From a virus: a stretch of 28,415 nucleotides of DNA. The stretch lies in IMG/VR virus record IMGVR_UViG_3300032291_003201, positions 1-28,415 of that record. One strand, 5' to 3'. Position numbers and translations under genes: made by a program. Position 1 is the first letter of the stretch. The number at the start of each line of letters is the position of its first letter. The notes under the pieces were generated by a model, which was given only the letters and a program-made list of their open reading frames with translations, made no database searches and had not been told where the DNA came from. Below, in pieces: positions 1,513 to 15,202 of this stretch.

Positions 1513-2199
1513 CTAAAATTCATCTTCAGATGTTAGTTCTCCTTTAAGTCTTTCAAGATCTTCAATTAATCTGTCTATTGATTCAACATCTTGTCTACAT
1601 TTGATAGATAAAACATCACCAGCGTTATCATCTTTATCAGTTCCAATGATATAACCAGGTCCACCTCTCATTATTCGATAGTTACTTTTTTTACCACCAA
1701 AAAATCCTTCTTCTATTGGTTCTTCATTGTCTTTAACTTTTTCTCTACCAACTTCTGAAGCCAATGTTCCCCAGACAGCACCACCCATACCAGCCATAAG
1801 AAGTGCTGCTTGTAATATTTCATCATTAGCCATTGTACCCATCATATACCCAAGAACTCCACTTACAAGTGATGCAATACCATATGTCATTAATTTTCTT
1901 TTTAAGAAATGATTTCTTGTTATTTCTTTTTTATTATCACCATAGTCATAATATTTATAACTTTCATTTATGTTCATTTCTAAAGCTCTTTGAATTTCTT
2001 CAGCCTTGTCAGGGTTTTCTTTAAAGAATTTAACTAGTCCTTGAAAATCGTCACTTTGTTTTAGTTTTTCCATTTTAGAAAAATCAGAATCCATTTCCAT
2101 ATCTTCAGATTGTGAAATCCACTCTTCTTCATTTTCTTTAACAATTCGTCTAACAATTCTTGTTAAATCAGATTCTGTAAGTCTTATAATCTTTTTCAT
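1513..2199 (-). CDS. Leader-bearing protein with glycine-rich transmembrane hairpin
   Basis: 228 residues of unrecognised family. Residues 1-22 (MKKIIRLTESDLTRI... ending V-K-E) match the N-termini of the proteins starting at 6322 and 5627, and part of the leader DNA is identical to that of the 6322 gene. Residues 25-90 are acidic and helical. Residues about 104-122 and 128-146 are two hydrophobic, Gly/Ala/Met-rich segments joined by a short NDE-containing turn, so a membrane hairpin is likely. The C-terminal 70 residues are soluble, with a GGPGYIIGTDKDD segment and a final charged helix. It sits between gp6 (27-base gap) and a terminator. The V-x-E after the leader resembles a phage prohead-protease site, so it may be a packaged protein that enters the host membrane. 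That role is inference; the two hydrophobic segments and the shared leader are directly visible. Confidence 0.85.
   Translation of the reverse strand: MKKIIRLTESDLTRIVRRIVKENEEEWISQSEDMEMDSDFSKMEKLKQSDDFQGLVKFFKENPDKAEEIQRALEMNINESYKYYDYGDNKKEITRNHFLKRKLMTYGIASLVSGVLGYMMGTMANDEILQAALLMAGMGGAVWGTLASEVGREKVKDNEEPIEEGFFGGKKSNYRIMRGGPGYIIGTDKDDNAGDVLSIKCRQDVESIDRLIEDLERLKGELTSEDEF
2155..2178 (-). repeat. 24-base direct repeat, copy 1 (leader DNA)
   Basis: This stretch is identical to 6278-6301. Both lie in the same position of the leader codons (TESDLTRI) of two otherwise unrelated genes, which implies recent duplication or recombination of the leader. Confidence 0.85.
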
Positions 2200-4583: not shown

Positions 4584-5339
4584 TTAGTCTAAATCACTTT
4601 CATACTTTTCAAAAAAAGCTTTTGGTATTTCTTTGTGTGGTAATTTTGTTTTTGTTAGTACACCACTTTTTTCCATAGCGGCCAAATTTCTTTGTATTGA
4701 CGGATAACCACCCCAATTTGAACTATTTGATAAAGAATGTACATTTTTTGGTAGACTATTCACAACTCTTGGGGATGTTGGGTCTATAAGACCAATAAAA
4801 CTATACTTACTTGGGTTGTTTTCAATTTCTTTCCAAACTAATCTACCGCCAGCAGAAAAACCCATAATTTTAGTAACATTATTATCTTTTTTTAAATTTT
4901 CTAATTTTTGAGAATCGTTATAATTAATAAATTCAACATTGTCAGTTGATAATCCAGCTTTTTTCCACTCACCACGCATCCAATCTTTAGTTGCATAACT
5001 TATACCCCCAATAACAACAGATAAACCGTCTTTACTTTTTGGGGTATTATCTTTTTTCTCTTCTTTATCTTTTTTCTCTTCTTTATTCTTATCTAATTCT
5101 TTTTCAACATCTTTTTTGATTGTTTCAATTTTTTTACTAACCTCACTTTTACTTGGTGGTGTATCAACAGTTTCTTTTTTATCAAAATCAATTCCGGTAA
5201 CATCTTTAAAAATGTCTTTAACTTTTTGTACTGGCGCTGAATTTTTAATAGTATCAATTACATCATTATACCAAGCTTCTTCAATTGTTTGTGTTTCTAT
5301 AAGTCTCTTTAATTGACTTTCTGTAATTTTTATTTTCAT
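4584..5339 (-). CDS. Leader-bearing alpha/beta-hydrolase (lipase/esterase-like)
   Basis: 251 residues. Residues 1-15 (MKIKITESQLKRLIE) are a shortened variant of the shared leader, ending L-I-E. Residues 60-102 form a Lys/Glu-rich, probably helical linker. Residues 105-251 look like a compact alpha/beta-hydrolase: a strand LSVVIGGISYA (106-116), the nucleophile elbow MGFSAGG (159-165, Ser162 in G-x-S-x-G), a following strand ending in Asp186 (GLIDPTSP), and His235 near the end (LPHKEIP). Ser162, Asp186 and His235 are in the right order for a catalytic triad, so activity is plausible; the substrate (lipid, ester or peptide) is unknown. The domain lacks a lid and is small for the fold. The gene lies between a terminator and the gp25-gp6 pair, suggesting late expression. 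The hydrolase call is from motif reading; packaging into the capsid is inference. Confidence 0.75.
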   Translation of the reverse strand: MKIKITESQLKRLIETQTIEEAWYNDVIDTIKNSAPVQKVKDIFKDVTGIDFDKKETVDTPPSKSEVSKKIETIKKDVEKELDKNKEEKKDKEEKKDNTPKSKDGLSVVIGGISYATKDWMRGEWKKAGLSTDNVEFINYNDSQKLENLKKDNNVTKIMGFSAGGRLVWKEIENNPSKYSFIGLIDPTSPRVVNSLPKNVHSLSNSSNWGGYPSIQRNLAAMEKSGVLTKTKLPHKEIPKAFFEKYESDLD

Positions 5340-5399: not shown

Positions 5400-5627
5400 T
5401 TATAAAGTTTTATTACTACGTAACATCCTTCTATTAAACCAATATTCTGCTATTGGTTGTACAATATCGTCATTTGTTTCATCGGTTTCTGAATCAATTT
5501 TTGCCATAATATCTTCCATTTCTGGTGTTGGTACTTCTGGCATTTCCGGTCCTTCAGGTCCTTCATTTATTACTCTTTTAATAATACGAGATAAATCTTT
5601 CTCAGTTAATCTTGACACTCTTTTCAT
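5400..5627 (-). CDS. Short leader-bearing acidic protein
   Basis: 75 residues with no recognised family. Residues 1-22 (MKRVSRLTEKDLSRIIKRVI, then N-E) match the shared leader almost position for position, including Glu22 in an I-N-E motif. The remainder starts with a Gly/Pro/Glu repeat-like run (GPEGPEMPEVPTPEME, residues 23-38) and is strongly acidic, ending in a short Arg/Asn-rich tail (FNRRMLRSNKTL). Nearly a third of the protein is leader, so after cleavage only about 53 residues would remain. It lies 20 bases behind the amidase gene and in front of a terminator, so the two probably share a transcript. The consistency of the leader supports a real gene despite the small size; the function is unknown. 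Confidence 0.75.
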   Translation of the reverse strand: MKRVSRLTEKDLSRIIKRVINEGPEGPEMPEVPTPEMEDIMAKIDSETDETNDDIVQPIAEYWFNRRMLRSNKTL

Positions 5628-5647: not shown

Positions 5648-6322
5648 TTATTTTGGGCATCTCCAGCCACTTTCTTTATAGCCCTTAACATCTTTACCCC
5701 AACCACATTTTACGGCGTTGGTTTCTACTTTTGTTGGGACTTTCCAAAATCTAATCTCACTAGGAACATCCCAATGATCACCACCACCACTTTTGGTTCC
5801 ATCCCAAATATCAGTGTGTCCAGCGGCATCACCCCAAGCGTCGGTTTTAAAAGCATAAACACCTTTTTTATTTTTCATTTCTTCCGGAACACCACCACCA
5901 GGATGATTAATTATTGTTGGTTCACCAAAATTTCTCTCTAAAATATTATTAAAAGCTTGTGATGATGGGTTAAAATTTGACCCAGCAGGAACATCTTGAC
6001 CACCAAAATTTACAGTTTTTTCTGTTGTGTAATTACCACCCGGTTTTAAGCCAGCTCCTAGTAATGCCATTGACATTCTACTAGCACAAGTATTTGCCCA
6101 ACTAGTAGGTATAACTTTCCTCATTGATACTAATTTTTTTGGTATTATCTTCTCAAAAAAAGGATCAACACCTTCTGGTTGTTTTGGGAATGCGTTCCAC
6201 ATTTTAGTCCAGACACTTTCATCAAGACTTTCATTTATTAATCTTTGATTTCTATCTTCAATTATTATTTTTTTAATAATTCTTGTTAAATCAGATTCTG
6301 TTAATCTAACAACTTTTTTCAT
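5648..6322 (-). CDS. Leader-bearing Tae4-type peptidoglycan amidase
   Basis: 224 residues. Residues 1-22 (MKKVVRLTESDLTRI... ending I-I-E) are the shared leader. The rest resembles the Tae4 family, NlpC/P60-fold amidases best known as type VI secretion effectors that cut the D-Glu-mDAP bond in Gram-negative peptidoglycan. The catalytic Cys lies in WANTCASRMSMALLGAG (residues 75-91, Cys79), the His in GHTDIWDG (168-175, His169), 90 residues later. The acidic third residue could be Asp171, Asp174 or Asp182. The stretch PSSQAFNNILERNFGEP (119-135) and the C-terminal Cys206/Cys222 are compatible with the family; the two Cys could form a disulfide. There is no hydrophobic signal peptide. As a phage protein it could be the endolysin or an entry lysin; the leader favours a virion-associated role. 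The amidase call is fairly secure; the role is open. Confidence 0.82.
   Translation of the reverse strand: MKKVVRLTESDLTRIIKKIIIEDRNQRLINESLDESVWTKMWNAFPKQPEGVDPFFEKIIPKKLVSMRKVIPTSWANTCASRMSMALLGAGLKPGGNYTTEKTVNFGGQDVPAGSNFNPSSQAFNNILERNFGEPTIINHPGGGVPEEMKNKKGVYAFKTDAWGDAAGHTDIWDGTKSGGGDHWDVPSEIRFWKVPTKVETNAVKCGWGKDVKGYKESGWRCPK
6278..6301 (-). repeat. 24-base direct repeat, copy 2 (leader DNA)
   Basis: This stretch is identical to 2155-2178, at the equivalent codons of the leader of the amidase gene. Confidence 0.85.
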
Positions 6323-6351: not shown

Positions 6352-6379
6352 AAAAAAAATCCCTACTTTCGTAAGGATT
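6352..6379 (-). terminator. Terminator overlapping the end of the DUF5522-like gene
   Basis: Read on the minus strand, AATCCTTAC and GTAGGGATT pair over 9 bp (one G-U) around a GAAA tetraloop and are followed by a run of T residues. The hairpin contains the last codons and the TAG stop of the gene at 6363-6590, so coding and terminator sequence are shared. It closes the DNA-metabolism transcript. Confidence 0.88.
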
Positions 6380-6590
6380 CTTTTAAGTTCGTGCTACCCT
6401 TTTCATATAAGGGTTCGTATGGACAATGTTTACATTTTGATCCACAACACCTACCCCTCTTTATATGATAGGATTCGGACATTACAATATTTCCAAATTT
6501 ATCCTTATAAAAATCTGGTTCTGGAGTTTTTTTTGTTGTCTCCTGAACATATAGTTGTTGTACCCAATCTTTTGATGCGTTTACTGTCAT
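6363..6590 (-). CDS. DUF5522-like small cysteine-cluster protein
   Basis: 75 residues. Residues 32-60 carry the motif I associate with DUF5522: a strand GNIVMSESYHIKRG followed by RCCGSKCKHCPYEP, giving Cys48, Cys49, Cys53 and Cys56. The tight cysteine cluster suggests a metal or iron-sulfur site. The family's biochemical function is not known to me, and it is mainly seen in Bacteroidota chromosomes. The gene follows the ribonucleotide reductase gene, separated by a hairpin, and is the last gene of the DNA-metabolism run; a link to redox or nucleotide metabolism is only suggested by position. The N-terminal 25 residues and the C-terminal tail, whose codons double as a terminator, are not conserved-looking. 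Confidence 0.78.
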   Translation of the reverse strand: MTVNASKDWVQQLYVQETTKKTPEPDFYKDKFGNIVMSESYHIKRGRCCGSKCKHCPYEPLYEKGSTNLKESLRK

Positions 6591-14518: not shown

Positions 14519-15202
14519 TTACATCATATTGTTTTCATCTTCATTTCCTTCATAGTCGTTGAATGATGTTCTAACTTCTTCGGGTGAATAATCCTCAACC
14601 TCGTCGGTTGTTAATACATATTCATTTTTTCCAGATTGTCTCATCTCTTCTTGTTTGTCAACAAAAAAGTCAGATAGTTTCTGTTTAAATGGTCCGGAAT
14701 CTAAACTTCTTAGTTCAAGTTTTTCTTCTGGTGTTTTTGGTCTAAATTGGTCAAATTTAGTTTCAAGGCTATTAATCTTTTGTACTAATTGATCCATTTC
14801 ACCCAATTTTGATTCTAAATTTGTTAATTGTGTGAATAAATTATTAAAATATTCTTCTTGTTTATCTGACATTGTTTTTTGTGTATCAACAAGGTCTGTA
14901 ATATCCAATTCTTCTTCACCACCTTCACCACCTTCTTCGGCATCAATTTCTTCAACGTCAGCATCGGTCTCAACATCAACTGGAGCTCCAGGTTCTGCTA
15001 CTGGTGCTGGCGGGGCTCCTCCTGGTGGTGGTGGTACATCTCCTCCCGGTGCCGGTGGCGCTTCTCCTCCTGGAGGTGGTGGTACATCTCCACCTGGTAA
15101 TGGTAAGTCTCCTCCCGGTGGGGGTGGTACTTGTTCCATAATATAGTTATTGATATTTCTATATCTCTCTATTTCTTCTAATATTTTTTTGTCTAGACTC
15201 AT
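14519..15202 (-). CDS. Pro/Gly-repeat coiled-coil protein
   Basis: 227 residues of unrecognised family with a clear modular build. Residues 1-23 form a helical N-terminus (MSLDKKILEEIERYRNINNY, then I-M-E). Residues 25-67 are tandem PPPPGG-type units of 7-8 residues. Residues 76-100 are very acidic (EEGGEGGEEELD). Residues about 110-155 are a predicted coiled coil (FNNLFTQLTNLESKLGEMDQ). The C-terminal third is charged and soluble, ending in an acidic tail. The I-x-E at residue 23 resembles a prohead-protease site, as in the leader genes, but the preceding sequence is not the same leader. The gene starts one base after the stop of the 74-residue gene and is the last of the tail/baseplate run. 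A structural, scaffold or linker role would fit; none is shown. Confidence 0.85.
   Translation of the reverse strand: MSLDKKILEEIERYRNINNYIMEQVPPPPGGDLPLPGGDVPPPPGGEAPPAPGGDVPPPPGGAPPAPVAEPGAPVDVETDADVEEIDAEEGGEGGEEELDITDLVDTQKTMSDKQEEYFNNLFTQLTNLESKLGEMDQLVQKINSLETKFDQFRPKTPEEKLELRSLDSGPFKQKLSDFFVDKQEEMRQSGKNEYVLTTDEVEDYSPEEVRTSFNDYEGNEDENNMM
15002..15130 (-). repeat. Degenerate tandem repeat coding PPPPGG(D/E) units
   Basis: About six units of 21-24 bases code for VPPPPGGD, LPLPGGD, VPPPPGGE, APPAPGGD, VPPPPGG and APPAP. It is the only strongly GC-rich patch seen in the window, so copy number probably varies between relatives. Confidence 0.88.

Follow-up and report, generated by a model that had tools for sequence, protein, structure and literature searches.

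The locus and its genes

The window, the whole 28,415-nucleotide stretch of viral DNA that was analysed, encodes a 251-residue protein next to a baseplate gene and an amidase gene. The original prediction placed an active lipase/esterase-like enzyme at 4584-5339, in a compact domain behind a Lys/Glu linker and a leader. The coordinates are correct, the gene lies on the minus strand, and linker and leader are both real. The features referred to below are as follows (arrows mark the junction at the end of a leader).

1513..2199, minus strand: leader-bearing protein with a hydrophobic segment; its junction PIEE↓GFFGGKKSNY is conserved and reads PIDE↓GLFGG in the homologue on contig L003
4068..4529, minus strand: gp25, a baseplate wedge protein that bounds the exchange slot on its downstream side (profile and locus comparison)
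4584..5339, minus strand: leader-bearing α/β-hydrolase gene, 251 aa (the ORF reads from 5339 to 4584)
4587..5027, minus strand: compact α/β-hydrolase domain, residues 105-251 (alignment, model and Foldseek)
4635..4637, minus strand: codon of H235, the predicted base (LPHKEIP; alignment and model)
4782..4784, minus strand: codon of D186, the predicted acid (GLIDPTSP; alignment and model)
4854..4856, minus strand: codon of S162, the predicted nucleophile (GFSAGG; alignment and model)
5028..5195, minus strand: Lys/Glu-rich linker, residues 49-104 (model; the L010/L012 crossover lies here)
5196..5276, minus strand: predicted helical segment, residues 22-48 (AWYNDVIDTIKNS...; alignment and model)
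5277..5339, minus strand: N-terminal leader, residues 1-21 (MKIKITESQLKRLIETQTIEE), whose last residues are I-E-E, followed by A22; cleavage is proposed after E21 (motif and dN/dS)
5400..5627, minus strand: small protein with a leader and an INE↓G site at residue 22 (leader alignment)
5648..6322, minus strand: Tae4-type amidase with an LTESDL-class leader and an INE↓S site at residue 31 (PF14113, 1.1e-14; matches to solved Tae4/Ssp1)
6363..6590, minus strand: DUF5522 protein that bounds the exchange slot on its upstream side (profile and locus comparison)

A predicted compact α/β-hydrolase with an apparently intact triad

The predicted catalytic residues fall where they had been placed: S162 in GFSAGG, D186 in GLIDPTSP and H235 in LPHKEIP. 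All three are identical in 10 of 10 aligned relatives, some of which span the hydrolase domain alone, down to 41% identity. The other histidine of the protein, H201, was considered as the catalytic base and set aside, as it is not conserved among these relatives. The dN/dS ratio is low in both the hydrolase part (0.09-0.29) and the leader (0.13-0.20) and rises to about 0.5 in the linker; leader and enzyme are thus both constrained, while the linker is loose.

In the AlphaFold2 model of the whole protein, residues 101-251 have block pLDDT values of 75-97 (at least 85 in most blocks, with dips to about 78-79 at 201-220), and the leader and linker residues 81-103 are modelled with low confidence. 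In this model S162 sits between strand 155-161 and helix 163-174, D186 immediately follows strand 181-185, and H235 opens the C-terminal helix 235-245, the last long helix of the protein. The secondary-structure elements follow one another as in a small α/β-hydrolase, with a nucleophile elbow and Ser, acid and His in canonical order in alignment and model alike. Nearly all of the best 50 Foldseek matches in the PDB are carboxylesterases or other α/β-hydrolases, apart from single outliers. They include the carboxylesterase/phospholipase 3b5e (probability 1.00) and the compact YdeN-like 3bdv (0.99-1.00). TM-scores are modest, partly because about 100 query residues fall outside the domain.

The phage protein shares with these members of the superfamily the fold, the nucleophile elbow, the Ser-Asp-His order and a core of about 150 residues. 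It differs from them in lacking a detectable sequence family, in being smaller than most, and in an SNSxNW segment that is invariant in the alignment of relatives. Among viral models, Foldseek returned two compact α/β-hydrolases of 151 and 166 aa predicted from uncultured Caudovirales (BFVD A0A6J7WH09 and A0A6J5MSD8), both with probability 1.00 but only 14-20% identical to the phage hydrolase. Pfam, NCBIfam and PHROG profiles gave no convincing family above cut-off for the ORF, and no lipase family passed it in Pfam or NCBIfam; a weak Pfam match to DurN lies under the cut-off and was discarded as an identity. Sequence searches of the PDB with the domain and with its profile yielded chance matches only, and no relatives were found in 50,697 phage records or in the bacterial and archaeal genomes searched.

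With fold, triad and purifying selection all pointing the same way, the prediction of an active enzyme is well supported: the ORF product is very probably an active compact α/β-hydrolase with an intact S162-D186-H235 triad, most likely of the esterase/lipase type.

An exchange slot between DUF5522 and gp25

Relatives of the locus were gathered via gp25 and via the leader. In the slot bounded by DUF5522 and gp25, they keep the N-terminal leader and the Lys/Glu-rich linker, and the C-terminal domain differs from contig to contig. The window-type hydrolase occupies the slot in L009, L010, L011, L014, L015, L016, L028, L126, L129 and L130, and a second α/β domain with an FSAGC motif in L012, L017, L018, L128 and L136-L138. 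SGNH-like cargo is found in L009 and L131-L134, and also in L135, where it lies outside the gp25 slot; the only GDSL profile match is that of L009, at E = 0.025. In L144 and L145 (at 3001), upstream of gp25, the cargo is a dual-specificity phosphatase (HCAHGADRTG; PF00782, 1.7e-6). With a phosphatase among the cargoes, the set appears broader than wall enzymes. A similar topology and Ser/acid/His order had suggested that the FSAGC cargo was another α/β-hydrolase. This assignment is weakened by a poorer model, with an overall pLDDT of 57 and values of about 70-78 across most of the domain, and by the mixed Rossmann-like folds that Foldseek returned.

L010 and L012 provide a case of exchange. 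Their sequences match at 99.8% over 604 bp on the upstream side, as far as the linker, and at 100% over a 579-bp stretch that begins immediately past the stop codon. The cargo between these flanks cannot be aligned, and the crossover lies in the linker. Near-identical flanks around an unalignable cargo indicate a recent cassette exchange. Comparison of contigs shows cargo enzymes being swapped by recombination behind a leader and linker that stay constant, apparently as a delivery module. L009 carries two leader-bearing genes in tandem, SGNH-like and then hydrolase; in the window the matching position is taken up by the genes for the Tae4 amidase, for a 75-aa protein and for the hydrolase.

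By eye, small ORFs around the DUF5522 gene and the cargo gene of L016 look homing-endonuclease-like; they lie about 0.9-2.4 kb upstream of gp25 and might drive local exchange.

This arrangement is reminiscent of polymorphic toxins, in which a constant N-terminal delivery module is likewise followed by exchangeable C-terminal enzymes. It departs from them in that no immunity genes are seen here and that the proposed delivery is by a phage head rather than by secretion.

Two leader classes with a shared terminal motif

The hydrolase leader is short and has an L/I-X-E end, IEE↓A at residue 21. The helical segment that follows it (residues 22-48) is common to all slot cargoes of this leader class, the phosphatase excepted. 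The ends of the slot leaders are TIEE↓A, DLNE↓A, TLNE↓A, VLNE↓A, MINE↓A, MLNE↓A, SINE↓A, NINE↓S and QIKE↓G. All distinct leaders have I or L at P3, E at P1 and A, S or G at P1′, fitting [IL]xE[ASG], and the flanking residues differ from leader to leader ahead of the conserved AWY[N/D]D or the sequence in its place. Secretion through a signal peptide was set aside upon inspection of the sequence, which is charged and amphipathic rather than hydrophobic. A literature search found no occurrence of the leader sequence.

A second class, named here for its LTESDL motif, is found on three window genes, among them that of the Tae4 amidase. A DNA pattern fixing residues 1-16 only recovered it from at least 120 stretches. 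Across 154 distinct proteins among the matches listed, conservation runs to E22, beyond the fixed residues, and then stops at once. In this class, among the matches listed, P3 is I, L or V in 97% and E is present in 95%; P1′ is often Q, N or E, not A, S or G. When both classes are taken together (171 proteins among the matches listed), [IL]xE[AGS] occurs within residues 16-65 of 50, against 16.7 ± 3.8 in shuffled sequences, counts that are not independent because the leaders share ancestry. None of 1000 shuffles reached 50, and neither the motif at residues 66-115 nor the control motifs were enriched. Across whole genomes the motif shows a modest N-terminal excess, weak because few proteins carry leaders; in the genome G001 this excess falls short of significance.

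The LTESDL class is widespread outside the gp25 slot. In 84,980 bacterial and archaeal genomes the leader pattern matched three contigs. Two come from the same metagenome bin, and at least one of these is phage-like, with an ORF that resembles a terminase by eye; in the third, a Bacteroidota contig, the match is an ORF of 53 aa. The 26-aa consensus leader had no match in 50,697 phage records.

In IMG/VR (L146-L225 and further), the LTESDL leader of about 22 residues precedes very many otherwise unrelated small proteins, several per contig. Most of these cargoes, which come from large phages, have no function evident from sequence. Within this leader, L/I-X-E occurs twice in near-invariant form, as LTE at 7-9 and as IxE at 20-22, and the leader might be cut twice.

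The leader-bearing protein at 1513-2199 (minus strand) has a 93-aa homologue in L003 that is without the hydrophobic insert and retains P-I-(E/D)-E↓G-(F/L)-F-G-G at the junction, as though this were where the mature domain starts. A Pro/Gly-rich repeat protein (PPPPGG) at 14519-15202 (minus strand) begins with another amphipathic N-terminus, ILEEIERYRNINNYIME↓Q, which also has an I-X-E end.

Head maturation and the parallel with T4

In phage T4, the prohead protease gp21 cuts after L/I-X-E, and internal proteins bear N-terminal propeptides of 10-19 residues that are capsid targeting sequences (PMC9026906). The internal proteins of T-even phages are a diverse set in which the targeting sequence alone is conserved (PMC3012670). 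Large freshwater phages with gp23-type head genes have predicted Bacteroidetes hosts (PMC9723584), and we infer that the window belongs to this group. The isolate Flavobacterium phage immuto was considered for comparison and is too distant to help.

An S77 prohead protease and gp23 are each present in 14 of 14 large LTESDL-bearing contigs, which were chosen for size, so that this is an association and not a controlled test. Among the relatives, a 322-kb contig (G010) has both the S77 protease and gp23, and a 152-kb contig (G013) has gp23. All 12 distinct sequences of the relatives' major capsid protein (MCP) carry INE↓A at residue 60. A head-cluster protein of the relatives keeps E↓APIDYEGPERM even though its leader has diverged. 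The window, a 28-kb fragment, is without head genes, and its nearest contigs are also without gp23 and S77; protease and MCP are therefore predicted for the phage from more distant relatives.

These features make it likely that the leader is a prohead-cleavable capsid-targeting sequence. The original prediction recognised a leader variant, which is real, but missed this probable prohead-protease-type nature and its sharing among exchangeable cargoes. Like the T4 internal head proteins processed in the gp21/S77 manner, the proteins described here combine a short N-terminal leader, an L/I-X-E end and a leader conserved on divergent mature proteins, and a T4-type gp23/S77 head system is present in the relatives. 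Unlike them, the cargoes are hydrolytic enzymes, and it is at a single locus that one replaces another, downstream of a helical segment and Lys/Glu linker that stay fixed. The best reading is that the leader-hydrolase would be a new variant on the T4 internal-protein theme.

Proposed delivery of the enzyme

A capsid-targeting leader shifts the likely delivery route from that of a late envelope enzyme to that of a head-internal, ejected one. In this model, residues 1-21 would direct the protein into the prohead and then be cut off after E21 by an S77 prohead protease resembling T4 gp21. The mature enzyme of about 230 residues would then be packaged with the DNA and ejected into the Bacteroidota host at infection, where it would most likely hydrolyse a cell-envelope ester alongside other delivered enzymes such as the Tae4 amidase. 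We give this combined reading, a leader-tagged head-internal enzyme that is ejected into a Bacteroidota host and probably acts on the envelope, a probability of roughly 0.55, with most weight on the hydrolase and on head delivery; location, cleavage and substrate are the predicted parts.

The envelope target is argued from the Tae4 neighbour, whose catalytic Cys and His align to those of solved Tae4/Ssp1, and from the company kept by distant homologues, namely CHAP/NlpC-like, PG-binding, tail-lysozyme, GDSL and CarboxypepD_reg domains. A pair of envelope-directed enzymes, hydrolase and amidase, is plausible. The dual-specificity phosphatase cargo is a poor fit to an envelope target or to a pure cell-wall role, and the chances that the substrate is an envelope ester appear about even. 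The pairing of a PF14113 Tae4 domain with a GxSxG-type hydrolase recalls the Tae4 amidase and Tle lipase effectors of the type VI secretion system (T6SS), in which envelope enzymes are injected by the same functional logic. Here, in contrast, the enzymes are phage-encoded, no T6SS or immunity gene was seen, and the hydrolase matches no lipase family searched.

Alternative roles

The distant homologues also underlie the main rival to head delivery, in which the hydrolase is associated with the tail or baseplate, its leader being a docking helix, and acts on the envelope from the tail tip during penetration. The slot lies directly upstream of gp25 and a gp6/J-like wedge gene. In L004, the hydrolase domain follows CarboxypepD_reg in a 674-aa baseplate-adjacent protein, two genes upstream of a gp25-like gene. 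In L007/L008 (7347-10127), a 41% identical hydrolase domain is part of a tail-lysin-like 926-aa protein with CHAP/NlpC-like, PG_binding_1, Phage_lysozyme2 and GDSL domains. The hydrolase domain may thus be tail-borne in those phages. Their homologues are, however, without this leader, while in the slot the leader ends in a motif of the head-protease type and is common to very different cargoes, including a phosphatase; the LTESDL class is, in addition, widespread beyond the slot. We consider a tail location unlikely for the window protein. Small proteins encoded next to the L007/L008 gene start with FINE↓S- or LNE↓S-like leaders.

Still less probable is a hydrolase that acts late, in the cytoplasm or at lysis, and is absent from the virion, its leader being a regulatory or interaction motif. 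Amidase/esterase pairs do occur in lysis modules, the hydrolase gene is near an amidase gene, and its product has no evident signal peptide. Nothing holin- or spanin-like is evident beside the gene, though, and the same leader types, close to phage-specific, sit on many unrelated cargoes and end in a head-maturation motif.

Folds of this type are sometimes re-used as non-enzymes, but a catalytically dead structural or binding domain is very improbable here, given a triad invariant down to 41% identity and low dN/dS, and no computed result points toward it.

Possible implications for large Bacteroidota phages

Head delivery of a leader-tagged enzyme yields a specific cut site that can be tested, and a specific enzyme. 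It also suggests, more tentatively, that large T4-related phages of Bacteroidota load an exchangeable head arsenal by means of a cleavable leader hardly seen elsewhere, that recombination in the linker swaps the cargo, and that the set is injected with the genome. If true, this arsenal would comprise an esterase, an amidase, an SGNH hydrolase, a phosphatase and many unknowns. To our knowledge, the proteins injected with DNA by large phages are known for only a few cultured models. The leader would then provide a sequence handle on the ejected proteome of abundant uncultivated phages, and head-delivered enzymes would be traded between phages as cassettes, in a manner close to that of polymorphic toxins.
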